Made by a program: the position numbers and the translations under genes. Positions 13,103 through 29,069 of a DNA stretch of 64,000 nucleotides are shown in pieces (position 1 is the stretch's first letter; each line of letters starts with the position of its first letter). The notes beneath the pieces were generated by a model that was not told the DNA's origin, made no database searches, and saw only the letters and a program-made list of their open reading frames with translations. The stretch is from Acidithiobacillus ferrooxidans ATCC 23270 (GTDB taxonomy: Bacteria > Pseudomonadota > Gammaproteobacteria > Acidithiobacillales > Acidithiobacillaceae), in assembly GCF_000021485.1 (NCBI RefSeq), contig NC_011761.1:526001-590000 (forward strand), written 5' to 3'.

Positions 13103-14311
13103 TTAATCGTTATCAGGGAGTTCCGGCCTTTCCACCAGGGGTTCTATCTCCGGGGGCCCAAACTCCGGGCGCTCGATTTCGGGATGATGTAATACCGGAG
13201 GGAGCACCGGCATCCGCGGTATGATGGGGAAATCAAAGTCCATGGGGTTGACGCTGAAGATGACGCGTTCCGCATTGACGACGCCCGGTGCCTGGACCCT
13301 TCCCTCGACGGCGACCATGCTGCCTGCCCGCATGTTCGCGGCATCCCCGTTTTCATAGAGGGTGTGGGGTCCCTCCACCAGAGATATCCCGTGGGTGGTC
13401 CAACCGTTATCCCCGCGAGCCAGGTAACCCACCAGGGACACCCGGTTGCCGACGTTCTGCGCCGCCAGTGCAGTGGGGGTCACGCTCTCGACCTGAGCCC
13501 GTCCGTCGGCGTATTCGCCTCTGACTACCACGGATTGCCCTACCTGGATGGCACGGAGCAGGGCCCCGTTGACCTTGAGTTTCGTTGCTCCGACTTCCAG
13601 GGTGTCCCGATCCGGATAAAGGGCGTCCACCTGGCCCCGAAGCAGCAACGGGACCCGGGCGGGCGCGGTATCCCCCGGATAGAGACGACGGATCGCCGTC
13701 GCCAGCCAATGGCCATTCCCCCGGTCCAGGCCGCTGATCGACACCACGTCACCGACCTTCAGGGCCGTGAAGGGCAGGGATTGATCCGAATCGTGCATGG
13801 TGATGGGGGTCCTTTTGCCCGTCTGGATGGTCTCGCTGAGGATGGCGAGTTGTCGCTTGGCCGCATCGACTTCGGTCACCCGGCCGATAACGGCATGCTC
13901 CACCCGTACCTCCTGGGCGATCGCCCGCCCGTCGGCGGCGGCCTGGACGGTGACGCGGTCCCCGAGATGCAGGTCTTTCGCCGTACCCGCAGCGCCGTCG
14001 ATGCTATAGCGGGTCTGGGGGGTCAGGGCATATTCCTGACCGTTGACATAGATGCTGCCGAAGCGCTGGATTACCCCCAGGGCCGTGATTCCCGTCCCGC
14101 CGATGCCCCCTGGCTGGATGCCGGTGCCGCCGATGCCGCCGGAATGTATGCCGGTGCCGCCGATGCCGCCGGGGTGGATACCCGTACCCCCGATGCCATC
14201 CCGGGTGGCGCCCGATCCACCAAGGCCACCAGCCGGGTCGGGAAGGGCCCATGCCCCCGGCAGGGCTACCAGGCCCAGGACCAGGACCCACCAGCGCAGG
14301 GCTTTAGGCAT
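13103..14311 (-). CDS. secreted DUF5666-like repeat protein, copy 1
   Basis: Predicted exported protein of 402 residues. A signal peptide (MPKALRWWVLVLGLVALPGA, cleavage after about AWA) leads into a Gly-rich stretch with four imperfect 11-residue repeats of the type GGIGGTGIHP. About four OB-like beta modules follow, of the DUF5666 kind (VNGQEYALTPQTRYSIDG, LHLGDRVTV, LKVGDVVSISGL). The tail is rich in ERPE. I chose ATG 14311, not an upstream ATG at 14368, because GGAGGA lies 8 bases before it and it overlaps the DUF6502 stop as ATGCCTAA. Function unknown; perhaps a cell-surface or matrix protein. The 3' end differs from copy 2. Confidence 0.75.
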   Translation of the reverse strand: MPKALRWWVLVLGLVALPGAWALPDPAGGLGGSGATRDGIGGTGIHPGGIGGTGIHSGGIGGTGIQPGGIGGTGITALGVIQRFGSIYVNGQEYALTPQTRYSIDGAAGTAKDLHLGDRVTVQAAADGRAIAQEVRVEHAVIGRVTEVDAAKRQLAILSETIQTGKRTPITMHDSDQSLPFTALKVGDVVSISGLDRGNGHWLATAIRRLYPGDTAPARVPLLLRGQVDALYPDRDTLEVGATKLKVNGALLRAIQVGQSVVVRGEYADGRAQVESVTPTALAAQNVGNRVSLVGYLARGDNGWTTHGISLVEGPHTLYENGDAANMRAGSMVAVEGRVQAPGVVNAERVIFSVNPMDFDFPIIPRMPVLPPVLHHPEIERPEFGPPEIEPLVERPELPDND

Positions 14312-14606
14312 GCGGCTCGTCCTCCGCGGCCGGTTCTTCTGTCGATTCCGCAGCGGCGTCTTCTTCATAGTAATAGACCCCCAGGCGCAGCCGCCGCTGC
14401 GGCCCTTCGGGGGACTCGGCTGTATTCAGCCGCTGATGGGCCTCGCGCAACAAGCGCTCGCCCATCCGGTAGAGTTCGGGCCGCGCCTCCTCCAGCACCG
14501 CTGCCGGCAGCGCATCGAAATACAGCGCCCGTTCCAGAAAGGGTTCCCCCCCTTCCAGGTTGTGTACCGCGCTGCGCAGGTGGTCACCGACGTTCTCCCC
14601 CAAAAA
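13311..14606. repeat. near-identical duplicated block, copy 1
   Basis: About 1.3 kb that matches 16989-18296 almost perfectly: I count roughly ten substitutions plus one 12-bp insertion in the other copy. It spans most of the DUF5666 gene and the 3' third of DUF6502. Identity falls sharply at both borders although both genes continue beyond them. This pattern fits gene conversion better than a recent simple duplication. Confidence 0.85.
14052..14220. repeat. 33-bp coding tandem repeats (GGIGGTGI units), copy 1
   Basis: About four tandem units of roughly 33 bp encode GGIGGTGI followed by a variable tripeptide such as HPG, HSG or QPG. They lie in frame just after the signal peptide of the secreted protein. 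The same array is found in copy 2 at 17730-17890. Confidence 0.8.
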
Positions 14607-15134
14607 GGCTACCCGGTCTTCCGGCAGGGCAGAAATATAGGCATGGCGTAACAGACGCACTACCCCTTCCTTTTCCTCCGCCACCCCCACCCGGCCCAAT
14701 TCATCCAGAATGGCTCGTGGGCGCATGTCGGCCTTGACTCGGCGCGCCAGTCCCTCAAAGCTCGGGGACGCCTCGCTGCGTAGGGGTAGCGACTTGGGTT
14801 GCCCGGAAGGGTCTGCATAATCCGCCATCGACACCCAGGCGGCCACCACCTGCGCCGCAATGTTGGCCCCGTGCCGCAACATCGGCCGCTCGCCGTGCTC
14901 CTCCAGCAGAAGCCGCAGCCGCCTGACTTCCTTACGGTGGATCCCGGTCAGCAGGCTGACCCGACTGTCCGTCAGTGTCCGCCCGTCGGTCTCCCCATAG
15001 TGCTTGCTCGCCTCCGCCACATACACCATCTTGAGTGTGTCCGCCAACGCCCCATAGGTCCACCCCTGTCCGATCAGATACCGGACCAATGGGCGCAGGA
15101 TCGCCAACACCGCCGTTTTCAGTACTCCATTCAT
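14304..15134 (-). CDS. DUF6502-like protein with HTH-type N-terminus, copy 1
   Basis: A 276-residue soluble protein resembling the uncharacterised DUF6502 family. Residues about 25-80 look like a winged helix-turn-helix (WTYGALADTLK, then LTDSRVSLLTGIHRKEVRRL). The remainder is helical and Arg/Glu-rich, ending in an acidic tail (EEDAAAESTEEPAAEDEP). No enzyme motif is visible, so a DNA-binding regulator is plausible but unproven. Its stop overlaps the secreted-protein start by 8 bases. A degenerate version of the operator found at copy 2 lies at 15184-15202. Confidence 0.75.
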   Translation of the reverse strand: MNGVLKTAVLAILRPLVRYLIGQGWTYGALADTLKMVYVAEASKHYGETDGRTLTDSRVSLLTGIHRKEVRRLRLLLEEHGERPMLRHGANIAAQVVAAWVSMADYADPSGQPKSLPLRSEASPSFEGLARRVKADMRPRAILDELGRVGVAEEKEGVVRLLRHAYISALPEDRVAFLGENVGDHLRSAVHNLEGGEPFLERALYFDALPAAVLEEARPELYRMGERLLREAHQRLNTAESPEGPQRRLRLGVYYYEEDAAAESTEEPAAEDEPHA

Positions 15135-15171
15135 GGCCTGCCTGGGCTCGCCTTACTCAGTTTCCGTATCA

Positions 15172-15202
15172 ATTGTAGCATGTCGTGAAATATGGACCCA
15201 CC
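15172..15202 (-). promoter_or_regulatory. putative promoter and degenerate operator of DUF6502 copy 1
   Basis: On the minus strand TACAAT (15177-15172) sits just downstream of an inverted-repeat-like element at 15184-15202. This element aligns with the AGTGG-N9-CCACT site of copy 2 but has lost one arm (GTGGG on one side, CACG on the other). Positioning relative to the -10 is the same in both copies. The rest of 15135-15414 shows no gene. Confidence 0.35.
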
Positions 15203-15414
15203 ATTTACCCTGCCTCCCGGCGCATGCGCAACACCCCGCCGTTAGCCAAAACGGAACACGGAGGCAAGATCTCGCCAGCCCCATTCGGCGACTTGTGCAT
15301 GTTGTATATAGACCATGATACGGGCTGCACGGGCTGCGATCATCGCTCGGCAATCGGTCATCAGGAGCGCCGCCATGTCCAATCCGCTGCGCTGTGGTCT
15401 GGAGTCACCTGTTT

Positions 15415-16428
15415 TCAAGATGCGTCGTAATAACTCCGATACCAGTCGATGAAACGGGCAAGACCATCACGCAAGGGGGTGGCGGGGGAAAAACCCACCG
15501 CCTCCTGCAATTCACCCACATCGGCATAGGTGGCAATAACGTCCCCGGCCTGCATGGGCAGCCATTCGATGTCGGCCTTGCGCGCCAGCAGATCCTCCAG
15601 GATCGCGATGAAATCCAGCAGGGCTACAGGGGTATGGTTGCCAATATTGTAAAGACGGAAGGGGGCATCGCTGGTGCTCGGATCCGGCCGCTCCGTCGAC
15701 ATCGGAGCAGGGCGCGGTGCGAAGTCCAGGAGCCGTACCACGCCTTCGATGACGTCGTCGATATAGGTAAAATCCCGGCGCATCTGACCATGATTGAAGA
15801 CGGGGATAGGCTCTCCGGCAAGGATCTGGCGCGTGAAACGAAAATAGGCCATGTCCGGTCGGCCCCACGGTCCGTAGACCGTGAAAAAACGCAAACCGGT
15901 GCAGGGAATGCCGAAGAGATGTGCATAGCTATGGGCCATGAGTTCGCCGGCCCGCTTGCTGGCGGCGTAGAGGCTGAGCGGATGATCGACCCCGTCATGG
16001 ACGCTGTAAGGCAGGCGGGCGTTGGCGCCATAGACCGAACTGGAGGAGGCGAAAAGCAGATGGTCCACGGCCTGGGCGCGACAGCCCTCCAGAACATTGG
16101 CGAAACCGACCAGATTGCTGTCGACATAAGCGGCGGGATCCTGGAGGGAATGGCGGACGCCCGCCTGGGCCGCAAGATTCACCACCACATCAAAATGTGG
16201 CCCGGCGAAGAGGCCTGTCATGGCCTCCCGATCGGCAAGATCCACGGTGTGGAATTGAAAGTCCGGATGGTTTTCCAGATGCGCCAGGCGATCCCGCTTG
16301 AGGGCGGGGTCATAATAGGCGTTGAGGTTATCAAGACCATGCACGATCCACCCTTCGGTCAATAGACGGCGGCACAGGTGGTAGCCGATGAAGCCGGCGG
16401 CACCGGTGACGAGAATCCGCCTGCTCAT
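15415..16428 (-). CDS. UDP-glucuronate 4-epimerase (NAD-dependent epimerase)
   Basis: Extended short-chain dehydrogenase/reductase of 337 residues. It has the NAD-binding TGAAGFIG (8-15), a Ser-rich catalytic stretch at about 128-131, and YAASK with Y154 and K158. Length and the motifs TVYGPWGRPDMA and AYYDPALKRDRL match UDP-glucuronate 4-epimerases, which make UDP-galacturonate. The substrate UDP-glucuronate would come from the UDP-glucose dehydrogenase at 25275. The ATG at 16428 overlaps the stop of an hldD remnant. The frame stays open to 16683, but that extension is the remnant read in another frame. Confidence 0.85.
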   Translation of the reverse strand: MSRRILVTGAAGFIGYHLCRRLLTEGWIVHGLDNLNAYYDPALKRDRLAHLENHPDFQFHTVDLADREAMTGLFAGPHFDVVVNLAAQAGVRHSLQDPAAYVDSNLVGFANVLEGCRAQAVDHLLFASSSSVYGANARLPYSVHDGVDHPLSLYAASKRAGELMAHSYAHLFGIPCTGLRFFTVYGPWGRPDMAYFRFTRQILAGEPIPVFNHGQMRRDFTYIDDVIEGVVRLLDFAPRPAPMSTERPDPSTSDAPFRLYNIGNHTPVALLDFIAILEDLLARKADIEWLPMQAGDVIATYADVGELQEAVGFSPATPLRDGLARFIDWYRSYYDAS

Positions 16429-16741: not shown

Positions 16742-17989
16742 TTAATCGCCATCAAGGATTTCCGGCCTTTCCACCTGTGGTCGCACTTCCGGCCGCTCGA
16801 CATCGGGCCGCTCGATTTCGGGGCTATTGACCTCTGGGCGCTCACCCTCATTTTCGGATCGCTCCCAGTCACCTCGCGCGCCCCGCGCCATCTGTGGTAA
16901 GGCGGGCAAATCAAAGTCCATAGGGTTGACGCGGAAGGTGATGCTTTCCACCGCGATGACCCCCGGGGCTTTGACCTCCCCACTGATGGCGACCATGCTG
17001 CCTGCCCGCATGTTCGCGGCATCCCCGTTTTCATAGAGGGTGTGGGGTCCCTCCACCAGAGATATCCCGTGGGTGGTCCAACCGTTATCCCCGCGAGCCA
17101 GGTAACCCACCAGGGACACCCGGTTGCCGACGTTCTGCGCCGCCAGTGCAGTGGGTGTCACGCTCTCGACCTGAGCCCGTCCGTCGGCGTATTCGCCTCT
17201 GACTACCACGGATTGCCCTACCTGGATGGCACGGAGCAGGGCCCCGTTGACCTTGAGTTTCGTTGCTCCGACTTCCAGGGTGTCCCGATCCGGATAAAGG
17301 GCGTCCACCTGGCCCCGAAGCAGCAACGGAACCCGGGCGGGCGCGGTATCCCCCGGATAGAGACGACGGATCGCCGTCGCCAGCCAATGGCCATTCCCCC
17401 GGTCCAGGCCGCTGATCGACACCACGTCACCGACCTTCAAGGCCGTGAAGGGCAGGGATTGATCCGAATCGTGCATGGTGATGGGGGTCCTTTTGCCCGC
17501 CTGGATGGTCTCGCCGAGGATGGCGAGTTGTCGCTTGGCCGCATCGACTTCGGTCACCCGGCCGATAACGGCATGCTCCACCCGTACCTCCTGGGCGATC
17601 GCCCGCCCGTCGGCGGCGGCCTGGACGGTGACGCGGTCCCCGAGATGCAGGTCTTTCGCCGTACCCGCAGCGCCGTCGATGCTATAGCGGGTCTGGGGGG
17701 TCAGGGCATATTCCTGACCGTTGACATAGATGCTGCCGAAGCGCTGGATTACCCCCAGGGCCGTGATTCCCGTCCCGCCGATGCCCCCTGGCTGGATGCC
17801 GGTGCCGCCGATGCCGCCGGAATGTATGCCGGTGCCGCCGATGCCGCCGGGGTGGATACCCGTACCCCCGATGCCATCCGGGGTGGCGCCCGATCCACCA
17901 AGGCCACCAGCCGGGTCGGGAAGGGCCCATGCCCCCGGCAGGGCTACCAGGCCCAGGACCAGGACCCACCAGCGCAGGGCTTTAGGCAT
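16742..17989 (-). CDS. secreted DUF5666-like repeat protein, copy 2
   Basis: A 415-residue paralogue of the copy 1 protein. It has the same signal peptide, the same GGIGGTGI repeats and the same OB-like modules, almost identical over the central 1.3 kb. Only the last 90 residues diverge: here the tail has a longer series of ERPE/ERPD units (ERPEVNSPEIERPDVERPEV). The start is ATG 17989, overlapping the DUF6502 stop (ATGCCTAA). An upstream in-frame ATG at 18058 lies inside DUF6502. The preserved core with diverged tails suggests both copies are functional. Confidence 0.75.
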   Translation of the reverse strand: MPKALRWWVLVLGLVALPGAWALPDPAGGLGGSGATPDGIGGTGIHPGGIGGTGIHSGGIGGTGIQPGGIGGTGITALGVIQRFGSIYVNGQEYALTPQTRYSIDGAAGTAKDLHLGDRVTVQAAADGRAIAQEVRVEHAVIGRVTEVDAAKRQLAILGETIQAGKRTPITMHDSDQSLPFTALKVGDVVSISGLDRGNGHWLATAIRRLYPGDTAPARVPLLLRGQVDALYPDRDTLEVGATKLKVNGALLRAIQVGQSVVVRGEYADGRAQVESVTPTALAAQNVGNRVSLVGYLARGDNGWTTHGISLVEGPHTLYENGDAANMRAGSMVAISGEVKAPGVIAVESITFRVNPMDFDLPALPQMARGARGDWERSENEGERPEVNSPEIERPDVERPEVRPQVERPEILDGD

Positions 17990-18296
17990 GCGGCTCGTCC
18001 TCCGCGGCCGGTTCTTCTGCCGGTTCTTCTGTCGATTCCGCCGCGGCGTCTTCTTCATAGTAATAGACCCCCAGGCGCAGCCGCCGCTGCGGCCCTTCGG
18101 GGGACTCGGCTGTATTCAGCCGCTGATGGGCCTCGCGCAACAAGTGCTCGCCCATCCGGTAGAGTTCCGGCCGCGCCTCCTCCAGCACCGCTGCCGGCAG
18201 CGCATCGAAATACAGCGCCCGTTCCAGAAAGGGTTCCCCCCCTTCCAGGTTGTGTACCGCGCTGCGCAGGTGGTCACCGACGTTCTCCCCCAAAAA
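16989..18296. repeat. near-identical duplicated block, copy 2
   Basis: Partner of 13311-14606, in the same orientation about 3.7 kb away. It carries a 12-bp direct duplication in the DUF6502 tail, adding one extra EEPA unit to the acidic C-terminus. Confidence 0.85.
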
Positions 18297-18824
18297 AGCG
18301 ACCTGGTCTTCGGGTAGATCGGATATATACGCAGCGCGCAACAGGTGCACCACGCCATCCTGCTCCTGGGCCACTCCCACCCGGCCCAATTCATCCAAAA
18401 TGGCTCGTGGACGCATGTCGGCCTTGACTCGGCGCGCCAGCTCCTCAAAGCTCGGCACCGCCACACTGCGCAGCGGTAACGATCGGGGCTGCCCGGAAGG
18501 GTCTGCATAATCCGCCATCGACACCCAGGCGGCCACCACCTGCGCCGCCAGATTGGCCCCGTGCCGCAACATCGGCCGCTCGCCGTGCTCCTCCAGCAGA
18601 AGCCGCAGCCGCCTGACTTCCTTACGGTGGATCCCGGTCAGCAGACTGACCCGACTGTCCGTCAGCGGTCGCCCGGCGGCCTTCCCGTAATGTCGTCTCG
18701 CTTCCGCTACGTATACCATTTTGAGCGCATCCGTCAGCGCCCCATAGGTCCAGCCCTGTCCGATCAGATATCGGACCAGGGGGCGCAGAATCGCCAATAC
18801 CGCCGTCTTCAATGCTTCGTTCAT
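17982..18824 (-). CDS. DUF6502-like protein with HTH-type N-terminus, copy 2
   Basis: Paralogue (280 residues) of the copy 1 protein with the same helix-turn-helix-like region (TDSRVSLLTGIHRKEVRRL) and acidic tail. The ATG at 18824 matches the copy 1 start; an in-frame start at 18866 would fall near the promoter. Divergence is patchy: near-identical in the C-terminal third and around residues 55-100, but clearly different at about residues 107-118 and 148-180. Two AGTGG-N9-CCACT inverted repeats lie immediately upstream, consistent with autoregulation. It is divergent from the glycosyltransferase operon. Confidence 0.75.
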   Translation of the reverse strand: MNEALKTAVLAILRPLVRYLIGQGWTYGALTDALKMVYVAEARRHYGKAAGRPLTDSRVSLLTGIHRKEVRRLRLLLEEHGERPMLRHGANLAAQVVAAWVSMADYADPSGQPRSLPLRSVAVPSFEELARRVKADMRPRAILDELGRVGVAQEQDGVVHLLRAAYISDLPEDQVAFLGENVGDHLRSAVHNLEGGEPFLERALYFDALPAAVLEEARPELYRMGEHLLREAHQRLNTAESPEGPQRRLRLGVYYYEEDAAAESTEEPAEEPAAEDEPHA

Positions 18825-18861: not shown

Positions 18862-18892
18862 AGCATAGCATGTAGTGGTATATATTCCCACT
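18862..18892 (-). promoter_or_regulatory. operator 1 and putative promoter of DUF6502 copy 2
   Basis: AGTGGTATATATTCCCACT at 18874-18892 is a 19-bp inverted repeat with perfect 5-bp arms. On the minus strand it is followed by TATGCT (18867-18862), a likely -10, so the operator lies over the spacer and -35 region. It is the first of three sites sharing AGTGG-N9-CCACT. Confidence 0.6.
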
Positions 18893-18910
18893 CATGCGTA
18901 GATTGTTTGA

Positions 18911-18929
18911 CGTGGTAGAAAATCCCACT
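18911..18929. promoter_or_regulatory. operator 2 between DUF6502 copy 2 and the glycan operon
   Basis: CGTGGTAGAAAATCCCACT has the same spacing and AT-rich centre as operator 1 with one mismatch in the outer position. It is placed 37 bp (about 3.5 helical turns) from operator 1. The remaining intergenic sequence to 19103 has one GC-rich hairpin (19023-19042) without a T tract and no gene. Confidence 0.55.
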
Positions 18930-19103
18930 ATATTGATCATACGGCAGCGGAATGCCGATGTCGACCAGCCACCGGAAAGGAAGACGTCACGTATCAGACA
19001 CCTCTATACAGGAATTCGATGGCCGGGCGGTGCGTTGCCCGGGAGCGGTCTGTAACCAGGGTCGGAGAACGGCGCGAGTGTCCGGCTTGAGCCTGGGTGA
19101 TTG

Positions 19104-19132
19104 TTGACAGTGGGAAAAATTACCACTAATCT
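19104..19132 (+). promoter_or_regulatory. glycan operon promoter with operator 3 in its spacer
   Basis: TTGACA (19104-19109) is followed after 17 bases by TAATCT (19127-19132). The third inverted repeat, AGTGGGAAAAATTACCACT (19109-19127), fills the spacer exactly. A bound protein would compete directly with RNA polymerase, so repression is the expected outcome. Confidence 0.6.
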
Positions 19133-19192: not shown

Positions 19193-19531
19193 ATGACAAC
19201 CACTTATGAACAACAACGAGTTCTACACGACGAATCTTCCCTTATGCTAGGGGCCTGGCAGTTTTCACCCGAGATGAAGCAGGTGAGGGATGTCGACGCT
19301 ACTGTCGGCACTATTTGCGGCCATCACAGCCCGCACGCGGTGCGCATCTTTCTTGACGGCGCCTGGACGACGTTCTGTATGGATTGCTGGCGCAGGAATC
19401 GCCGTTCCTACCGCCGTCCGGACGGCTTGTTGGCGCAGACCGAATCTTCCGCTGAACAAGTCTCACCAACGGCGATTCGGAAAACCTTCAGCAAGCCTTT
19501 TCTCCAATCGCTCCGTTCAGGAGGGCGGTGA
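19193..19531 (+). CDS. small Cys/His-containing protein leading the glycan operon
   Basis: A 112-residue protein I do not recognise. It holds a possible metal-binding set: ICGHHSPH at about 41-48 and FCMDCW at about 63-68, a spacing like a small zinc ribbon. It has no signal peptide and no membrane segment. AGGAGG precedes the ATG at 19193 by about 6 bases; an earlier ATG at 19169 lacks such a site. The stop overlaps the next gene's start region (GTGATG), so it belongs to the operon. A regulatory or accessory role is conjecture. Confidence 0.65.
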   Translation: MTTTYEQQRVLHDESSLMLGAWQFSPEMKQVRDVDATVGTICGHHSPHAVRIFLDGAWTTFCMDCWRRNRRSYRRPDGLLAQTESSAEQVSPTAIRKTFSKPFLQSLRSGGR

Positions 19532-20949
19532 TGAAACCCCTCATACAGCCGGGAATGGAGCGATACCGCCGCCTGCCCGGTGCGCAGGCGGCGGGTCCCA
19601 TGCCCACTAGCCAACGCTACGCGGACCGGGAAAGCCGGCAGAACCTGATGTTTGCCGGTGATTCCCCTTCCTCCCCCGGGACTTTCGCAGCAACGGGGCA
19701 GCCGATAACCCCGGGCGCCTTGCACCAGTGGTCCGCCGCAAAGCATGAGCGGTCGGCGCGACGAGTACTCCTCTATTCTCATGACACCTTCGGACTTGGC
19801 CATTTACGGCGGAATCTGGCCATTGTCGAGCATCTCATGCAGCGTAAACCGCCTTTTTCCGGGATGCTGCTGACCGGTTCCCCCATGGCCGGTTCCTGGC
19901 CGATGCCGATCGGCCTGGAGGTACGAGCCATCCCTCCCGTCATCAAGGTTGGTGCCGAGGAATATGCGGCCAGGGATCTTTCCTCCAGCTTCGAGATGGT
20001 CAAGGCACAACGCGAGGCGGCGATTCTGGACGCCATTGCCTCCTACCGGCCCGACTTCTTCCTGGTCGATCATGCCCCGGCGGGAATGAAAGGGGAGCTT
20101 TTGTCGGCACTGCGGTTCATCCGCGAGGAGATGCCGGCGACTCGCACCGTGTTGGGGTTGAGAGATGTCATCGACAGCCCTGAGACCGTGCGCCAGGTTT
20201 GGCAGGCACAAGGCATCTACGAGTTGCTGGAAAGGGAATATGACCAGATCCTGGTTTACGGCAGTCGCCACCTGTTCGACGTGGTGAGTGCCTATAAGCT
20301 TTCACCGAAGGTGGCGGCCAAAGTGCGCTACTGCGGTTATGTCGCCCGCACGGGCCTGCACGGTGTTCCGGACGTGCTGATGGCACCGTCGGGTTTGCCG
20401 GTGGTTCTCGTTACCGTCGGCGGCGGCGGCGATGGGTATGCCTTGATTGATGCCTATCTTGAGGCCTTGCGTCGGATTCCACAGAACACGGTACACAGCA
20501 TCGTCGTTCCCGGGCCGCTCATGCCGCCGGACCAGTATCAGACGCTGGCCGGGATTGCTGCTCAGCGCCAGGACATCCAGATTATCCCCTATACCACCGA
20601 ACTCGTGGGCTTGCTGCACATTGCCGATCTGGTGGTGGCGATGGGAGGGTACAACACCACCGCCGAGATCCTCGCCGCCAGGAAGTCGGCCATCCTGGTG
20701 CCACGCTCGACCCCGCGCATGGAGCAATGGCTTCGCGCAACGACGTTGAGCCAGCTCGGGCTCGTGTGGATGATCCAGCCCGAGGAAGACCTGGTCGACC
20801 GACTGGTGGAGCTGGTGCCGGCCGCCGTTGCCGGCGACCGTCCGCCTGGAAAGCCATGGGATACCGTGGACCTGGGGGGCGTTCATCGTGTTGCCGAGGT
20901 ACTGGAAGAGATGCTCCATCCCGGCGCGAGCACGGAGGTATCCCTATGA
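19531..20949 (+). CDS. glycosyltransferase, MurG-like (COG4671 type)
   Basis: A 472-residue GT-B fold protein. After a 70-residue poorly conserved N-terminus comes RRVLLYSHDTFGLGHLRRNL, the hallmark of the MurG/GT28-like predicted glycosyltransferases. The C-terminal half carries VVAMGGYNTTAEILAARKS, the nucleotide-sugar binding region of this fold. Donor and acceptor are unknown. The start is ATG 19531, or the adjacent GTG 19528, behind AGGAGGG. The stop overlaps the next start (ATGA). Confidence 0.82.
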   Translation: MKPLIQPGMERYRRLPGAQAAGPMPTSQRYADRESRQNLMFAGDSPSSPGTFAATGQPITPGALHQWSAAKHERSARRVLLYSHDTFGLGHLRRNLAIVEHLMQRKPPFSGMLLTGSPMAGSWPMPIGLEVRAIPPVIKVGAEEYAARDLSSSFEMVKAQREAAILDAIASYRPDFFLVDHAPAGMKGELLSALRFIREEMPATRTVLGLRDVIDSPETVRQVWQAQGIYELLEREYDQILVYGSRHLFDVVSAYKLSPKVAAKVRYCGYVARTGLHGVPDVLMAPSGLPVVLVTVGGGGDGYALIDAYLEALRRIPQNTVHSIVVPGPLMPPDQYQTLAGIAAQRQDIQIIPYTTELVGLLHIADLVVAMGGYNTTAEILAARKSAILVPRSTPRMEQWLRATTLSQLGLVWMIQPEEDLVDRLVELVPAAVAGDRPPGKPWDTVDLGGVHRVAEVLEEMLHPGASTEVSL

Positions 20950-22208
20950 CGGCGACAACCCCGACGGTAGGCTACGTACTGAAGCGTTATCCGCGCCTTT
21001 CGGAAACTTTCATTCTCAACGAAATGCGCGCACTGGAGCGTCTGGGTACCCCCCTGCACATCTTTTCGCTTCTGCGGCCCGAGGACGCCCCGCGGCATCC
21101 CACGGTTTCGGAGGTCCGGGCGACCGTGACGTATCTTCCCCTTACTTGGCCCCGGATCATATTTGCGGTTGCCAGGGGCCATGCCGTCGTGGCGGCCCGG
21201 GCACCGCTGCGCTACCTGCATGCCACCGGGCTCGCATTGTGGTGGTCCATCCGCACCCGTCGGCCACTGAGCGTCGGGAAACAGTTCCTGCGTTCCGGTT
21301 ATGTAGCGCATGGTTGTCTGCAAAACAACATTCAACACCTCCATGCCCACTTCGCCAATGCACCCGCCACGGTCGCTCGCCTGGCCGGGGTCATGTGCAA
21401 TATTCCCTACAGCTTCACAACGCACGCCAAGGATCTCTACCTGACCCCCCAGGAGGCCATGCGCCGACGGATCAAGTCGGCGCATTTCGTTCTCACCTGC
21501 ACCCGCTACAATGTCGAATACCTGCGCGGTTTTCTGCCGCGCCAGGACTGGGACAAAATCCATCTCGTCTACCACGGTATCGATCTTGCGGCCTTTCCTC
21601 AGGGTGAGTCTTTTGCGGATTTTCCGCTGGGGGAAAATGCCGATCTGCCCTTGATCCTTTCAGTGGGTCGCCTCGTCCCCAAAAAAGGGATGCGGGACTT
21701 GGTTACCGCTTGCCACCTGCTGCACAGCCGAGGGATTGCCTTTCGTTGTGTCATCATCGGTGAAGGCCCGTTGCGCCAGGAACTGGAGAGCCACGTCGCC
21801 GAGCTGGGCCTGACGGCTATGGTAACCCTGCCGGGTGCCATGGCTCACGACCGCCTCCTGGCATTTTACGGACAAGCAACCGTTTTCGCTCTCGCCCCCC
21901 ATGTAACGGAAGACGGAGACCGGGACGGCATCCCCAACGTTCTTGCGGAAGCCATGGCGGCTGGCACGCCCGTGGTCTCAACCGCGGTTTCGGGTATCCC
22001 CGAATTGATCGAAGACGGCCGTACCGGGCTGCTGGTGCCGCCGCGGGACCCGGTGGTGTTGGCCGACACCTTGGAACGGGTGCTTGTCGACGCGCCGCTA
22101 CGGCGCCGCCTCGCGGCGGCGAGCCGGGGCAAGATAGAGGAGCGCTTCGAATGCTGGGAGACCGCCAAGGCCCTGCGCGCCCTATTCGTGCAGAGTGTGC
22201 AGCCATGA
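20946..22208 (+). CDS. glycosyltransferase family 4 (colanic-acid type)
   Basis: A 420-residue retaining GT-B glycosyltransferase. The N-terminus YVLKRYPRLSETFILNEMRA is characteristic of the WcaL/colanic-acid-like subgroup. The C-terminal domain has VGRLVPKKGMRDLV and the EGDRDGIPNVLAEAMAAGTP motif, with the conserved Glu residues that contact the nucleotide sugar. It probably adds one sugar to a lipid-linked or growing glycan on the cytoplasmic face. Coupled on both sides by ATGA overlaps. Confidence 0.87.
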   Translation: MTATTPTVGYVLKRYPRLSETFILNEMRALERLGTPLHIFSLLRPEDAPRHPTVSEVRATVTYLPLTWPRIIFAVARGHAVVAARAPLRYLHATGLALWWSIRTRRPLSVGKQFLRSGYVAHGCLQNNIQHLHAHFANAPATVARLAGVMCNIPYSFTTHAKDLYLTPQEAMRRRIKSAHFVLTCTRYNVEYLRGFLPRQDWDKIHLVYHGIDLAAFPQGESFADFPLGENADLPLILSVGRLVPKKGMRDLVTACHLLHSRGIAFRCVIIGEGPLRQELESHVAELGLTAMVTLPGAMAHDRLLAFYGQATVFALAPHVTEDGDRDGIPNVLAEAMAAGTPVVSTAVSGIPELIEDGRTGLLVPPRDPVVLADTLERVLVDAPLRRRLAAASRGKIEERFECWETAKALRALFVQSVQP

Positions 22209-23449
22209 ATATCGTATACCTGTGCGCGGATCGCGGTATCCCCGTCCTCGGGGACAAGGGGGCGTCGGTGCATGTTCGGGAATTTACCACCGCGCTCGCA
22301 CGCGCCGGGCACGAGGTCACGCTACTCTGCGCCACGCAGGGAAAGGGGAATCCTTACCCACCGGCGCGGCTGATCGAGTTGCCGCCCGACGCCGATCCCA
22401 CAGAGATCCGTAGCGAGGGGGAACGGCTGGGAATCGGGCAGGGGGAATATGACCAGACTATGCGCCGGGAGGTGGACAAGCTGATCTGCGACCGCCGGCT
22501 CGCGGTTCGCGCCCTGGATGCCTTGGACGCGGCAGGTGTGCGGCCGGACGCGCTCTATGAGCGTTATGCGCTCTTCCATCGCTCCGGCGGTGACCTCGCC
22601 AGCGCCCTGAGGGTGCCTTACGTGCTGGAAGTCAATGCGCCTCTGGTCTACGAACAGGAGCGTTTCCGGGGATTACGGTTGAAGGCCATGGCGGAGGAGG
22701 CGGAAGTCACGGCCTTCCAGCGGGCCGACCATATCGTGGCCGTGTCGGAGGCCGTTCGTGAGCACGTGCTGTCCCGGCAGGTGCCGGTGAATCACGTGAC
22801 GGTGTTACCCAACGGGGTGGATATCAGCCGTTTCCATCCGCAAGTGGATGGACAGGGGATTCGCACACGCCTCGGGCTCGATGGACGACCGGTCATCGGC
22901 TTCGTGGGCAGCCTGAAGCCCTGGCATGGCCTGGATTTCCTGCTCGACGCCTTTATGCTGGTCAGCCGACAGTCGCCGGAGGCAGTGCTGTTGGTAGTGG
23001 GTGAAGGTCCCGGCAGTGCCGCCCTCCAGTCCCGTGCGATGGAAAATGGTTTCGCCGGCAAGGTCATCATGACCGGGCGTGTACCCCATGAAGATATCCC
23101 CGGCTACCTCGCTGCCATGGACCTTACGGTAGCTCCCTACCTCCCCCAGAACGGGTTCTATTTCTCGCCCCTCAAAGTGGTGGAATCGCTGGCGGTCGGA
23201 CGGCCCGTGGTGGCGCCTCGAATCGGCCAGTTACCCAGCCTGATCGAGGATGGCGTAACCGGTTTGCTCTTCCCGCCGGGGGATCTTGCGGCCTGTGTCG
23301 GCTGCATCCTCACCATGCTGAACGGGCCGTCGCAGCGGCGGGCCATGGGCTACCGTGCCGGCGAGGCGGCAGAAGGGATCCTCGGCTGGGGCAGAACCGC
23401 CCGGCAGGTGACGGATATCATTGCCGCCCTGCGATCCGGGCCGATATGA
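22205..23449 (+). CDS. glycosyltransferase family 4
   Basis: A 414-residue GT4 enzyme. The N-terminal Rossmann domain has the acceptor-side GDKGASVHVREF motif; the donor side has SLKPWHGLDFLLDAF and APYLPQNGFYFSPLKVVESL. That last stretch is a variant of the usual EGFGLPxxE motif. It differs from the preceding GT4, so the two likely make distinct linkages. ATGA overlaps at both ends place it inside the same polycistronic unit. Confidence 0.87.
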   Translation: MNIVYLCADRGIPVLGDKGASVHVREFTTALARAGHEVTLLCATQGKGNPYPPARLIELPPDADPTEIRSEGERLGIGQGEYDQTMRREVDKLICDRRLAVRALDALDAAGVRPDALYERYALFHRSGGDLASALRVPYVLEVNAPLVYEQERFRGLRLKAMAEEAEVTAFQRADHIVAVSEAVREHVLSRQVPVNHVTVLPNGVDISRFHPQVDGQGIRTRLGLDGRPVIGFVGSLKPWHGLDFLLDAFMLVSRQSPEAVLLVVGEGPGSAALQSRAMENGFAGKVIMTGRVPHEDIPGYLAAMDLTVAPYLPQNGFYFSPLKVVESLAVGRPVVAPRIGQLPSLIEDGVTGLLFPPGDLAACVGCILTMLNGPSQRRAMGYRAGEAAEGILGWGRTARQVTDIIAALRSGPI

Positions 23450-25278
23450 TGAACGCGGCCATGGACCAGCGGCAATCCTCCTTCTCCCTTTGGGATCTGC
23501 GTCGGTTTCTGCGCCCGCACTGGGCGGCGCTGTCCGGTGCTGCTCTGGCCATGACGGCGCGGGCCATGGTGTTGCTGGTCATTCCCTGGCCCTTGAAATT
23601 CGTCATCGACAGCGTGATTTCCCAGAAACCTCTGCCTGTCTGGCTTGCCGGTTTCCTGCCGGATCCCCTCAGCCATCGCGTGGCGCTGCTGGATGTCCTG
23701 GGGATTGTCATGCTCCTGTTCGCCGTGGCCGACTCTGCGCTGGCCTACGCCGGGGGCCGCCTGCTGTTGCGTGTGGGACAACGCGCTGTTTTCGACATCC
23801 GACGCAGCCTCTTCGCCCATCTGCAGCGACTTTCGCTGGCTTTTCATCGACGTCAGAAGAGCGGGGACCTCATGGCCCGGCTCGGCGGCGATATTCAGAC
23901 CCTTCAGGACTTTGTCGTGTCGGTGGGAACGGGGCTCTTTGCCCACCTGCTCACCATCATCGGCATGGCCGGGATCATGCTCGCCATTGACTGGCGCTAC
24001 GCCCTGGTCGTGATAGCATCCGTCCCCTTGCTGCTGGCGATCACCCAGCGTCACACGCGGCGCCTCAAGCAGGCGTTCCGCCTGGCGCGGCGGAAAGAAG
24101 GCGAATTGTGGAGCATGGCGCAGGAAAGCATCGCCGGCATCCCGGTCGTCCAGGCGTATGGCCGGGAATCCTTTGAGGAAAACCGTTTTCGTGAACGCGC
24201 CGAACGGAGCCTGGATGCGGCACTGGAAGCCAACGAACTGCAAATGCGTTTTACCCCCCTGGTGGGCGGCCTGGTGGCCGCGGCCGTGGGGATAGCTGTC
24301 TGGTACGGCGCCTCCCAGGTGTTGGCCGGACGCATCACGACGGGCGAATTGCTGGTTTTTCTCGCCTATCTGCGCGGCATGGCGGCGCCTCTGCGTCAGT
24401 TCGCCAAGATGGCCGGAACCGTCAGTAAGGCGACGGTAGCAGCCGAACGCCTCGGGGATATCTTCGCCGAAGAACCCGATATCCGGGATGCCCCGAACGC
24501 CGTGCCTCTGCCATCCTGTACCGGTGCGCTGGAATTTCGCTCCGTTTCCTTTGGTTACCAGACCGGTGAACCGGTGCTGAAGGAGATCTCCTTCGGTGTG
24601 GATTCCGGCCGGACGGTGGCCCTGGTGGGCACTACGGGCGCCGGCAAAAGCACGCTGGTGAGCCTCATTCCCCGCTTCCACGATCCCGTGGAAGGGCGGG
24701 TACTGCTGGATGGACGAGATCTACGCGATCTGAAAGTCGCCTCTGTCCGCGACCAAATAGCCCTGGTTCTGCAGGAACCGCTCCTCTTTCACGGCACCAT
24801 CTGGGAGAACATCGCCTATGGTCGCGCTGGTGCGGGGCGCGAAGAAGCCATTGCCGCAGCGCTGGCGGTTGGCCTCCATGACCTCATCGGAGGCCTGCGC
24901 GATGGCTACGATACCATGGTCGGAGAGCGGGGGGCATCGCTGTCCGGCGGGCAGCGGCAATGTGTCTCCATTGCCCGGGCCATGTTGCGGGACGCGCCTA
25001 TCGTCATCCTCGACGAGCCTACCAGCGGGCTGGATACCTTCTCCGAGCGTCGCGTGCTGGAAGCATTGAATCGCCTCACCACTGGCCGTACCACCCTGGT
25101 CATCGCCCACCGTCTGGCGACTATCGCCGCCGCCGACCGAATACTGGTTCTCGAACACGGCCGCATCATTCAGGACGGCACCCATGAGCAGCTTCTCGCG
25201 CAAGGGGGCCAATATGCCCGACTCTGGCAGCAGGGTTACTACCAATCATCCATGAGCATCACGCAGGAGGCAGTATGA
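23446..25278 (+). CDS. ABC exporter, MsbA-like (fused membrane and ATPase domains)
   Basis: A 610-residue half-transporter. An N-terminal six-helix membrane domain (about 25-320) is followed by an ATPase domain with Walker A GTTGAGKST at about 395-403, signature LSGGQRQ at about 499-505, and Walker B IVILDEP at about 519-525. Homodimers of this class flip lipids or lipid-linked glycans across the inner membrane. Being embedded among glycosyltransferase genes, it probably exports the locus product. The start may be ATG 23446 or 23449. Confidence 0.88.
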   Translation: MMNAAMDQRQSSFSLWDLRRFLRPHWAALSGAALAMTARAMVLLVIPWPLKFVIDSVISQKPLPVWLAGFLPDPLSHRVALLDVLGIVMLLFAVADSALAYAGGRLLLRVGQRAVFDIRRSLFAHLQRLSLAFHRRQKSGDLMARLGGDIQTLQDFVVSVGTGLFAHLLTIIGMAGIMLAIDWRYALVVIASVPLLLAITQRHTRRLKQAFRLARRKEGELWSMAQESIAGIPVVQAYGRESFEENRFRERAERSLDAALEANELQMRFTPLVGGLVAAAVGIAVWYGASQVLAGRITTGELLVFLAYLRGMAAPLRQFAKMAGTVSKATVAAERLGDIFAEEPDIRDAPNAVPLPSCTGALEFRSVSFGYQTGEPVLKEISFGVDSGRTVALVGTTGAGKSTLVSLIPRFHDPVEGRVLLDGRDLRDLKVASVRDQIALVLQEPLLFHGTIWENIAYGRAGAGREEAIAAALAVGLHDLIGGLRDGYDTMVGERGASLSGGQRQCVSIARAMLRDAPIVILDEPTSGLDTFSERRVLEALNRLTTGRTTLVIAHRLATIAAADRILVLEHGRIIQDGTHEQLLAQGGQYARLWQQGYYQSSMSITQEAV

Positions 25279-26579
25279 AGCACATCGTAGTCATTGGTGT
25301 CGGGTATGTAGGGTTGACGACTGCGGCCTTCCTGGCCGAGTTAGGGCACCACGTCACAGGAGTGGACATGGACGAAGGGAAGATCGTCCTGCTGCGTCAG
25401 GGCCGGATTCCCTTCATTGAACCAGAGCTTCCCGAACTGGTGGAGCGGAACGTCCGGGCCGGTCGCCTCAATTTCACCACCTCTTGCCAGAAAGCCATGC
25501 CGCATGCAGATATGGCCTTCATCTGCGTCGGCACGCCACCGACTCCCAGCGGACATGCCGACATGAGTCAGGTGGAAGAAGCCGCCCGGCAGGTTGCCCT
25601 CGCGGCGACGCAGCCCCTTATCGTCGTCCTCAAGAGCACCACCCCTCCCGGCGGAAATGCTGAGCGCGTGGCCGCCATCCTGGCAAGCCATCTGTCGCCG
25701 GGAATGGATGCCCCGCTGGTCGTCAACCCCGAATTTCTCCGCGAAGGATCGGCGGTATATGACACCTTCCACCCGGATCGTGCCGTGATCGGTGCCTGGG
25801 ACAGCGCGGCTGCAGAAGAAGTGGCGGCGTTGTATGCCCCCCTGCGCTGCCCCGTTCTCCTGACGGACCCGGCCAGCGCCCAACTCACCAAATATGCCTC
25901 CAACGCCTTCCTGGCCACCAAGATCTCTTTCATCAACGAGATATCCCGTATTGCCGAGCGGGTAGGGGCCAATATCCATGCCATTGCCCAAGGCATGGGG
26001 TTCGACGAGCGCATTGGCGCCGAATTCCTGGAGTCCGGCCTTGGCTACGGGGGCTCCTGCTTCCCCAAGGACGTCCTGGCCCTGTCCGCCATTGCGGAAC
26101 AGCAGGGGTATTATTCGCAATTTCTGCATGCGGTCACGGACATCAATGCCGGCCAGTGCAGTCTCGCCGTCGAGAAACTCGGTGACGCACTGGGGGGGTT
26201 CCACGGCAAGGCGGTATGCGTTCTCGGGCTGGCTTTCAAACCACAGACCGACGACGTGCGCGAGTCACCCGCCTTATCCGTGATTTCCATGCTTTGCCGG
26301 CAGGGCGCTGTTGTCCAGGCCTATGACCCGGCCGCCATGTCTACCGCGCAAAAAGTGCTGCCACCCCATGCTGCCCTGGAATATTGCGCCGATGCCTATG
26401 CTGCGGCGCTGGGTTGTCATGCCGTCCTGATCGCCACCAACTGGCCGGAATTTCGCAGCCTCGACTGGTCGCACATCCATTCTTCGATGGCGGGTAAGGC
26501 GGTCATGGACGGTCGTGGTTTGCTTTCACCGGATGAGATGCGCGGCATGGGGTTCGAATATCTGGCCTTCGCCAACTAG
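25275..26579 (+). CDS. ugd: UDP-glucose 6-dehydrogenase
   Basis: Oxidises UDP-glucose to UDP-glucuronate with two NAD+. The 434-residue chain has the NAD-binding GVGYVGLTT at 8-16, the substrate-loop Lys in LTKYASNAFLATKISFINE, and the catalytic Cys at 262 in GYGGSCFPKD. The C-terminal domain includes LGLAFKPQTDDVRESP. It supplies UDP-glucuronate, and through the epimerase at 15415 UDP-galacturonate, to the neighbouring glycosyltransferases. Coupled to the ABC exporter by ATGA. Confidence 0.95.
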   Translation: MKHIVVIGVGYVGLTTAAFLAELGHHVTGVDMDEGKIVLLRQGRIPFIEPELPELVERNVRAGRLNFTTSCQKAMPHADMAFICVGTPPTPSGHADMSQVEEAARQVALAATQPLIVVLKSTTPPGGNAERVAAILASHLSPGMDAPLVVNPEFLREGSAVYDTFHPDRAVIGAWDSAAAEEVAALYAPLRCPVLLTDPASAQLTKYASNAFLATKISFINEISRIAERVGANIHAIAQGMGFDERIGAEFLESGLGYGGSCFPKDVLALSAIAEQQGYYSQFLHAVTDINAGQCSLAVEKLGDALGGFHGKAVCVLGLAFKPQTDDVRESPALSVISMLCRQGAVVQAYDPAAMSTAQKVLPPHAALEYCADAYAAALGCHAVLIATNWPEFRSLDWSHIHSSMAGKAVMDGRGLLSPDEMRGMGFEYLAFAN

Positions 26580-26619
26580 GCACATACCGGCGTTATCATA
26601 CACAGGAGAGGCTCAGCCC

Positions 26620-27462
26620 ATGCGTATCCGCCGTAGGAAACTCTCGGTCCTGATCATGCTGGTCGTCTGTTACGCGGGATGGGGCCAGTCCGCGTATGCC
26701 CAACCCTGGATTCCCCCCGCGGGGTCCGGGAAAATCAAGGCCACGGTGAGATTTTATCACTCCGACCGCCTCTTCCCGCAGACTTCATTCAGCAGTACCA
26801 CTACCCCAACTCATTCAAAGCTTTCGGAGACGCAATTCCGTATCGACGGTGAGCAAGGGATCGGGCAGGGTTGGGCACTGGTTTACCAACTGCGCGCCGC
26901 CCTGCTCACCAAATCCAAACCGAAGGCGTCCTATTCCTCAGGAGGGTTGCAGGATCAACAGATTGGCGTCTCCTATGGATTGCGACAGCATGCGCACTTC
27001 GCCGACGCCATTACCGTCAACGCGATCATTCCCACCGGGCGGACATCGACCATCCCCCAGCTCGGGACCGGCGCTCTGGCCGTCGAACCGGATTACGAAG
27101 TGGGAGTGGAACATAATTTCGGGTCCCGGGTGGCCTACGCCGGTCTTTCCGTCGGTCCGCGTATCTACGTCAGGGATGGCGTGACGCAGCTACGAGCCTC
27201 GGCGGTGGTGGGTGTCGGTCTCATCCGGCGCCTCACCCTCATCGGTACCCTGTTTTTTTCCAAAACGCTGGCCAGTAACGCGCTTGCGGTCAGTACGACC
27301 CCCAACGCCTCGGAATTCTACAATATATTGCGCGGTGGTGTCGGACTCGAATACGCCGTTACCAAAAACGTGCGGCCGGTCATCGCCTACCAGGTGGATC
27401 TGGCGGGTCAGAGCATCCATGCCGGCAGCAGGCTGGTGGCCGGTGTTTCCTGGCGTTATTAA
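26620..27462 (+). CDS. outer-membrane beta-barrel protein of the glycan operon
   Basis: Predicted 280-residue exported protein. A twin-Arg-free signal peptide (MRIRRRKLSVLIMLVVCYAG, cleavage after about AYA) is followed by alternating polar/hydrophobic strands and a terminal aromatic residue (SWRY), typical of outer-membrane barrels. CAGGAGAG precedes the ATG at 26620. A 40-base gap separates it from ugd. It may export or anchor the glycan, or be a general transporter of the phenol_MetA_deg-like kind; I cannot tell which. Confidence 0.7.
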   Translation: MRIRRRKLSVLIMLVVCYAGWGQSAYAQPWIPPAGSGKIKATVRFYHSDRLFPQTSFSSTTTPTHSKLSETQFRIDGEQGIGQGWALVYQLRAALLTKSKPKASYSSGGLQDQQIGVSYGLRQHAHFADAITVNAIIPTGRTSTIPQLGTGALAVEPDYEVGVEHNFGSRVAYAGLSVGPRIYVRDGVTQLRASAVVGVGLIRRLTLIGTLFFSKTLASNALAVSTTPNASEFYNILRGGVGLEYAVTKNVRPVIAYQVDLAGQSIHAGSRLVAGVSWRY

Positions 27463-27473
27463 AAGCCCCGGCC

Positions 27474-28142
27474 ATGGAGACCATCCTGTTTTTATTGCGG
27501 CACGGTGAGACCGAATGGAATCGCAGCGGACGTTATCAGGGCCGTAGCGACCCGGAACTCACGCCCAACGGTGAGGCGCAGGCGCAAAGGGCTGCGGAAC
27601 ACCTTGCGCGCCTGAACCTCGCCGCCATTGTGGTTAGTCCACTGAGGCGGGCGTATGTCACTGCAAGTATCGTTGCAGAACGCCTGGGCCTACCCATCAC
27701 CACGGATGAGCGGCTGGTGGAGATGGGCTACGGCGACTGGGAAGGCTTGCAGCAAGCGGAGATCAAGACGCGGTGGCCAGAGTTGTTGCGCCGCTGGAAA
27801 AAGGCCCCCGACGAGGTGGCCCCTCCGGGTGGGGAGTCCCTCTCCGATCTTCAGCGCCGCGTACGCTCTTTTCTCCAGGACACCGCCGCAGGACCTGGAC
27901 CGATCCTCGCCGTTACCCATGCCGGGGTGATCCGGGCCGCGGTCCTTGAAATCCGGCGCGAACCGCTTGGCAAATTCCGCCAAGTGCAAGTCGCGAATGG
28001 CTCCCTCACTACCATCCATTGGCAGGACGGCCGCCTCTGTCTCGCCGATGGTCCGTGGGTCGGCGAAGGTAGTATTTATTCAAGAATCTGCACGGATCCA
28101 GAAAGATCCAGAGACCAGTTAAAAGACGATCTGAGCGCCTAG
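27474..28142 (+). CDS. histidine phosphatase family protein
   Basis: A 222-residue phosphoglycerate-mutase-like phosphatase. The phospho-accepting motif RHGETEWN starts at residue 9, and the second catalytic His is in AVTHAGV. Members include alpha-ribazole phosphatase and sugar-phosphate phosphatases. In this operon a sugar phosphate is a reasonable substrate, but that is inference. It starts 11 bases after the barrel-protein stop. Its 3' end overlaps the convergent outer-membrane gene by 24 bases. Confidence 0.85.
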   Translation: METILFLLRHGETEWNRSGRYQGRSDPELTPNGEAQAQRAAEHLARLNLAAIVVSPLRRAYVTASIVAERLGLPITTDERLVEMGYGDWEGLQQAEIKTRWPELLRRWKKAPDEVAPPGGESLSDLQRRVRSFLQDTAAGPGPILAVTHAGVIRAAVLEIRREPLGKFRQVQVANGSLTTIHWQDGRLCLADGPWVGEGSIYSRICTDPERSRDQLKDDLSA

Positions 28143-28904
28143 GCCAACACCGTAGTTCGCGCTGCCGTTGGACAATCCTTTGTCTGCGTAGAGTTGAATA
28201 CCACTACCTGCGCGCGTGACATTGTAATTCCAGGCAAAAACGATGTCTGCCGGACCCGCATAACCGGGCTGCTCGGATTCGGAACCAGAAAACATCGCTG
28301 TAAGGATGTTGCGCGGCGTGGCAACAAAGCTGGAGCCCATATCATAGGTCCAGATATTGTGCAGATTACCGCCAGCCGGATTGCCCACGAAACGGTAGCC
28401 CAGATGGGCGAATGGAAAGATGCGGGTGCCAATCGTCTCGTCCAGACCTACACCGATCTCGTAATCGTTGCGCCCGGTGCCCAATCCATTGGTGGCCGAG
28501 GCCGTACCAAGCTTGACCTTGGCATAGGGCACCACTGCGGGCAAAAGACCGGTTCTCTGGTAAACCGTGTAGTGTGCGGATAACCAGATGTCACCCAGAC
28601 CGCTCGCGCTATTTTGGGTTTGTGTCGTGCCAGGGCGGTGAACAATACCCCCACCCGTAAGCCGCGCCCCCTGGGGCAATCCGGAAACGGAGATGTAGGG
28701 AACCATCAACTTGAGACGCAGATCCCGATTTCGAAACTGGAAATAGGTGGCATCGTAAAAAATGTTGATATGACTGCCCGTTCCGAAAGTCCCCTGGTAG
28801 TACGAAGGCACATTGCCCAAAGTGAAACGGGGAGCCGCATGCGCAACTGTCACTACTGCCCACGAGGACAGAATGCCCATTCCTACCAATGATCGAAACC
28901 GCAT
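28119..28904 (-). CDS. outer-membrane beta-barrel protein
   Basis: A 261-residue exported barrel protein. It has a signal peptide (MRFRSLVGMGILSSWAVVTV, cleavage after AHA) and repeated strand-like segments such as FYDATYFQFRNRDLRLKL and SGLGDIWLSAHY, ending in IVF. This pattern fits the transporter/phenol-degradation MetA-like family (PF13557). AGGAGG lies about 6 bases before ATG 28904. It resembles the barrel at 26620 in style, size and SGLGD-type motifs. Function unknown. Confidence 0.72.
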   Translation of the reverse strand: MRFRSLVGMGILSSWAVVTVAHAAPRFTLGNVPSYYQGTFGTGSHINIFYDATYFQFRNRDLRLKLMVPYISVSGLPQGARLTGGGIVHRPGTTQTQNSASGLGDIWLSAHYTVYQRTGLLPAVVPYAKVKLGTASATNGLGTGRNDYEIGVGLDETIGTRIFPFAHLGYRFVGNPAGGNLHNIWTYDMGSSFVATPRNILTAMFSGSESEQPGYAGPADIVFAWNYNVTRAGSGIQLYADKGLSNGSANYGVGLGAQIVF

Positions 28905-29069
28905 GCAATCCTCCTGTTCCTCTGAAATTGGGTGCGAATGAGTCATCTGGAAATCAATTTTTGAACATGCGGGAATTATGCCCACAAGTTTGGCAAGGAA
29001 CAAGAATTGGTCCTGTGGGGCGCAGAGGGCGCACTGCGACAAAGCCGGTGCGCCAGAAATCGCTGGTCC

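Follow-up and report, generated by a model that had tools for sequence, protein, structure and literature searches.

Palindromic repeats in the predicted promoters of a DUF6502 gene and a glycan operon in Acidithiobacillus ferrooxidans point to a probable, hitherto unrecognised family of bacterial regulators

The window, a stretch of 64,000 nucleotides of the Acidithiobacillus ferrooxidans ATCC 23270 genome, contains two DUF6502 genes on the minus strand. Copy 2 (17982-18824), which encodes a 280-aa candidate regulator, matches Pfam PF20112 with E=3e-25 and 88.9 bits (gathering cut-off 27) over profile positions 3-267 of 268 and is thus a member of this family. Its start at ATG 18824 agrees with that of relatives, and an upstream ATG at 18866 falls in the predicted -10 element. 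Copy 1 (14304-15134), also a PF20112 protein, is 92% identical to copy 2. As no operator of the kind described below was found upstream of copy 1 (15135-15330), the two copies are probably under different regulation. The operon partner of copy 2 encodes an apparently secreted DUF5666 protein (16742-18058, minus strand; Pfam PF18914, E=3e-21). This protein and the DUF5666 protein encoded at 13103-14368 have tandem GGIGGTGI repeats close to the N-terminus, and a nucleotide-sugar epimerase/dehydratase gene (15415-16425) lies between the two DUF6502-DUF5666 blocks. Divergent from copy 2, on the plus strand, lies a glycan operon (19193-28142) that encodes a 112-aa protein, a GT28-like and two GT4 glycosyltransferases, an MsbA-like ABC exporter, a nucleotide-sugar dehydrogenase, an outer-membrane protein and a histidine phosphatase. 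The epimerase/dehydratase and the nucleotide-sugar dehydrogenase (25275-26579) may point to a uronic-acid glycan as product. The minus-strand gene 28119-28904 encodes an outer-membrane-like protein, for which no family match above cut-off was found.

Three inverted repeats, none with an assigned strand, lie between copy 2 and the glycan operon: AGTGGTATATATTCCCACT at 18874-18892 (operator 1), CGTGGTAGAAAATCCCACT at 18911-18929 (operator 2) and AGTGGGAAAAATTACCACT at 19109-19127 (operator 3). A sequence-only reading of this DNA had described them as AGTGG-N9-CCACT repeats, two of them 37 bp apart at the copy 2 promoter and the third in the -35/-10 spacer of the glycosyltransferase operon. The coordinates were correct and the arms are exact at operators 1 and 3, but operator 2 is one base off (CGTGG). 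Operator 1 overlaps the -35 element and spacer of the predicted copy 2 promoter (18862-18890, minus strand), which consists of the extended -10 TGCTATGCT (18870-18862), 17 bp and a weak -35, TGGGAA (18890-18885); sequence and conservation place this -35 within operator 1. A copy 2 promoter with the TGCTATGCT -10 is plausible, its proposed -35 being poor. The 37-bp spacing of operators 1 and 2 also held, but the assignment of operator 2 changed: as it takes up the whole spacer between two promoter-like elements on the plus strand (upstream glycan-side promoter, predicted at 18907-18934; TTGACG 18907-18912, N16, TATATT 18929-18934), its place is with the glycan side no less than with the DUF6502 side. 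In the related genomes G011 and G012, the corresponding element makes up the spacer between TTGACG and TATACT in the promoter of a gene for a secreted protein, divergent from DUF6502. Operator 3 does occupy the spacer of the predicted glycan operon promoter (19104-19132, plus strand), in which TTGACA (19104-19109) and TAATCT (19127-19132) are separated by 17 bp. Judged by sequence and conservation, each operator would thus overlap one predicted promoter. A weaker fourth site, GCGGGAATTATGCCCAC (28969-28985, no strand assigned), precedes the gene 28119-28904 for the outer-membrane protein; it is kept in G007 and G002, and a stronger version is present at the orthologue in G011 and G012.

AGTGG-N9-CCACT occurs twice in the window, compared with 0.00 times in shuffled sequences. 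Across the whole genome (2,982,397 bp) it occurs three times and the reversed control pattern eight times, so the 5+5 arms by themselves are non-specific. Because genome-wide specificity was absent, we dropped this pattern as the motif and put in its place GTGGKA-N5-TCCCAC, the informative core of the sites. The copy 2 sites read GTGGTA-N5-TCCCAC at 18875-18891 and 18912-18928, with the spacing expected of the subfamily of the protein (His66, defined below). The third genomic AGTGG-N9-CCACT (C1:1239136), which has a GC-rich centre and sits where an open frame ends, was taken as chance. The pattern AGTGGTAWWWWWTCCCACT fits all three sites better (site 3 on the minus strand) and, with up to three mismatches in the 2.98-Mb genome, returned the three sites and two weaker places, compared with none for the control. 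When seven species of the genus are aligned, the sites stand out as conserved islands, and operator 1 is present in G003, G004, G005, G007 and G013. The regulon excludes permissive one-mismatch sites elsewhere in the same genome that fall within open frames (L266, L268-L271), and also L272, for which conservation evidence was absent.

To follow the motif in relatives, we searched 29 genomes of the window's family for GTGGTAWWWWWTCCCAC, allowing up to one mismatch. Nine genomes contain it exactly and the other 20 do not, and the reversed control was near zero. Each of the nine has a PF20112 match, the glycan operon, or both. G011 and G012 have DUF6502 with the motif beside it and lack the GT28 gene, which shows that the motif follows DUF6502 and not the glycan operon. 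In G002 and G005 the glycan operon is present without a PF20112 match because their contigs stop beside the site; by eye, the G005 contig still contains the first 23 codons of DUF6502. Conservation of the motif beside DUF6502, which the sequence-only reading had named as a check on its proposal, was found also where the glycan operon is absent, and a version of the motif occurs in several phyla. In the same-order relative G200, DUF6502 is divergent from a homologue of the 28119-28904 gene, with two operators between them. This arrangement suggests a history in which the glycan operon of Acidithiobacillus was placed between DUF6502 and the outer-membrane gene and gained operators. The gene for a Sel1-like secreted protein has a conserved site upstream as well (G000:C1:1569573). 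At this gene (L005:1474-1519, that is, G000:C1:1569545-1569590), a conserved sigma-54-like TGGCACGAATACTGC is closely followed by a perfect GTGGGAAAAATTCCCAC operator.

DUF6502 is present in 99 of 369 sampled Gammaproteobacteria genomes and absent from all 14 control genomes. A further 80 DUF6502 loci were drawn from Pseudomonadota, Thermodesulfobacteriota, Nitrospirota, Myxococcota, a Planctomycetota and a Binatota bin. Among 79 of these loci, TGGGA-N6-TCCCA at the DUF6502 gene start was perfect in 52 and matched at least 9 of 10 positions in 63, whereas spacings of 2-5 and 7-12 gave no perfect match at these 79 starts, and their dinucleotide shuffles gave on average 0.0 perfect matches and 0.8 with up to one mismatch. 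At the genome level, TGGGAW6TCCCA was found in 46 of 99 genomes with DUF6502 and in 10 of 270 without (p=2e-21), and a genome with the motif mostly has one or two copies. Among the sites inspected away from DUF6502, many precede DUF5666 lipoprotein genes, and the DUF6502-DUF5666 pair recurs in annotated records of Azospirillum, Methylocystis, Pseudoroseomonas and Rhizobium. Exact sites are missing from one in three His-type genomes and, among all genomes with DUF6502, from about half; some of the DUF6502 genes concerned are internal to operons and the rest are unexplained. No operator was found at three Rhizobium DUF6502 loci.

The form of the operator differs between two subfamilies of the protein. 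The window DUF6502 has a His at recognition-helix position 66 (TGIHRKEV) and belongs to the His66 subfamily, whose members with a detectable site have GTGGGA-N5-TCCCAC (14 of 14). In contrast, non-His66 members with a site (Ser, Thr, Asn, rarely others) have TTGGGA-N6-TCCCAA (68 of 68 distinct proteins). As a quick tree shows two clades with a single change between them, the match of subtype and operator counts as one evolutionary event, and we rejected the idea of many independent protein changes tracking operator changes. Two cases that fit the rule make coincidence less likely: in genome G165, which contains both paralogues, each gene carries the operator type of its own subfamily, and on alphaproteobacterial plasmids, which lay outside the set from which the rule was derived, all 7 of 7 proteins are of the His type, with N5 operators at 4 of 7 and N6 operators at none. 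The N5 motif was likewise found in 16 of 24 His-type genomes compared with 5 of 34 others.

The two operator types also sit differently at promoters. N6 operators often lie 17 nt after TTGACA and are centred on the -10, with the start codon a few bases on, so that many N6-type DUF6502 genes look leaderless; at L086, L078, L091, L098 and other such loci, the operator lies over the -10, 3-4 bases ahead of the start codon. N5 operators are often directly adjacent to a TTGAC(A/G) of the other strand. Divergent promoters repeatedly carry a pair of operators with a spacing of 33-37 bp. At several loci (L192:1474-1516, L256:707-757 and L259:4677-4800), two or three operators follow one another at distances of 20-70 bp, a clustering that may allow cooperative binding. 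In Methylocystis iwaonis, a glycosyltransferase gene is divergent from DUF6502 with N5 operators between; its product has no similarity to the GT28 protein of the window and was rejected as its relative. Near His-type DUF6502 genes of other genera we also observed short-repeat open frames (LDLGPLDFRP, LISGR; L252:8450-9184, L253:8472-9896, L254:10584-12404), which may be frames opposite a repeat-rich gene.

An AlphaFold model of DUF6502 made with 125 homologues (mean pLDDT 87, pTM 0.71) contains a confidently predicted helix-turn-helix at residues 56-80 (helices 56-63 and 67-80, pLDDT >90), which bears out the helix-turn-helix-like N-terminus proposed earlier. The lack of a DNA-binding fold, which the sequence-only reading had named as grounds for refuting its proposal, was thus not seen. 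The window protein retains the SRVSxxTGxxRKEV helix-turn-helix of the PF20112 family, and DNA-binding domains of DeoR, NsrR and TtgV match this first unit. A second, winged-helix-like unit is predicted at 126-161. With two models, HetR structures (PDB 3qod, 4j00, 4izz, 4yrv) were the sole PDB entries with an alignment to almost the entire DUF6502 chain, at a level below significance (Foldseek prob 0.95, E 0.013, TM ~0.34, rmsd ~11); VIA gave Z 7.5 over 218 residues. HetR, the master regulator of cyanobacterial heterocysts, is an autoregulated activator that acts on its own promoter, and it binds a short GGG-N5-CCC palindrome in which Arg62, Glu71 and Lys73 touch bases (PMC4649674); these half-sites are closer together than those of the putative DUF6502 operators, GGG-N7/N8-CCC. 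Homology by sequence was unsupported, as hhalign of the DUF6502 alignment against one HetR sequence gave no match and a PDB sequence search with DUF6502 profiles returned chance matches only. No HetR relatives were found in plasmids and viral contigs. The resemblance, seen with predicted structures, is a lead and not a sign of family membership.

Overall, the distribution and form of the motif indicate that the three repeats are very probably docking sites of DUF6502. As natural candidate regulator, the role that the sequence-only reading gave it, DUF6502 is supported by a motif that tracks it in the genus and sits at its genes across phyla. We consider it probable that DUF6502 acts as a helix-turn-helix transcription factor that binds palindromes and regulates its own gene, that the repeats are its operators and that both divergent units are repressed until a signal arrives. 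In the DUF6502 dimer that we assume, each TGGGA-type half-site would be contacted by one of the two recognition helices. Bound at operator 1, the dimer would cover the DUF6502 promoter and cause autorepression; at operators 2 and 3, it would cover the -35/-10 spacers of the two glycan-side promoters, and both units would be kept off until an assumed signal releases the protein. Direct contact between DUF6502 and DNA is strongly implied by the sequence patterns, and repression is likely, we infer, because the operators lie over predicted core promoters. For the glycan operon, control is proposed from operator position within one genus. Recurrent targets of DUF6502 would be its own gene and DUF5666 genes, with the glycan operon, the outer-membrane protein and the Sel1-like protein as further putative targets in the window's genus.

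Such a layout, with the operator over the core promoter and a divergent regulator-target pair, is common among classical autoregulatory helix-turn-helix repressors of the TetR, LacI and IclR kinds. DUF6502 matches none of these above cut-off (Pfam, NCBIfam) and no clear match exists for its second, winged-helix-like part or for its C-terminal part. AfeR is a LuxR-type protein. This quorum-sensing regulator of A. ferrooxidans resembles the role proposed for DUF6502 in that it binds a palindrome in this species and has a link to polysaccharide genes (PMC5021923). In the available portion of the source no link of AfeR quorum sensing to DUF6502 was found, and we did not retain it as regulator of the repeats.

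A role for DUF6502 as an activator at the same operators, or as activator and repressor both in the manner of HetR, would fit the best full-length structural match being an autoregulated activator (PMC4649674) and the recurrence of paired operators 33-37 bp apart at divergent promoters. We regard it as unlikely, as the operators overlap the -10 or fill a 16-17 bp spacer, where a bound protein normally blocks RNA polymerase. Spacer activators of the MerR type require a spacer of 19-20 bp, and the operator-bearing spacers here, at 16 and 17 bp, are shorter.

Sites far from any DUF6502 gene, such as that at the Sel1-like gene (G000:C1:1569573), would be expected if another, unlinked regulator bound the palindromes and DUF6502 were just one target among others. 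This seems improbable in view of a motif that occurs at DUF6502 genes in several phyla, shifts with the subfamily, differs between the G165 paralogues and depends for its presence on DUF6502. As the partner DUF5666 appears secreted, DUF6502 is the sole shared DNA-binding candidate. That the repeats are chance or structural features (RNA hairpins, promoter texture) with no dedicated protein accords with the 5+5 arm pattern being no rarer genome-wide than its reversed control. Yet their distribution in the genus, the conserved islands in seven species, the fixed spacing, the family-wide palindrome at gene starts and shuffles near zero strongly disfavour it, as do the positions of the sites in promoter spacers, upstream of predicted transcripts, and we give it hardly any credence.

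DUF6502 thus seems to represent a type of bacterial gene switch that has gone unrecognised as a family and would control its own gene in many phyla and, in the window, a surface-glycan operon as well. The literature searched, which excludes most subscription journals, yielded no paper naming DUF6502 or PF20112 and, in line with the earlier reading, no described function. The class of mechanism, an autoregulatory helix-turn-helix protein on a palindrome over its promoter, is familiar, while the family, operators and partner appear new. A bolder and doubtful extension is that of a widespread HetR-fold family outside cyanobacteria, coupled to secreted DUF5666, with two operator codes set by the recognition helix, that switches production of a surface glycan and might be released by DUF5666, or by something that the system makes, as the signal. 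Found in about a quarter of sampled gammaproteobacterial genomes and in several other phyla, DUF6502 becomes a testable regulator family through the operator consensus, the two-subfamily code, the partner DUF5666 and a concrete target operon. For Acidithiobacillus, this would offer a handle on the surface glycan and, perhaps, hence on biofilm formation and mineral attachment.
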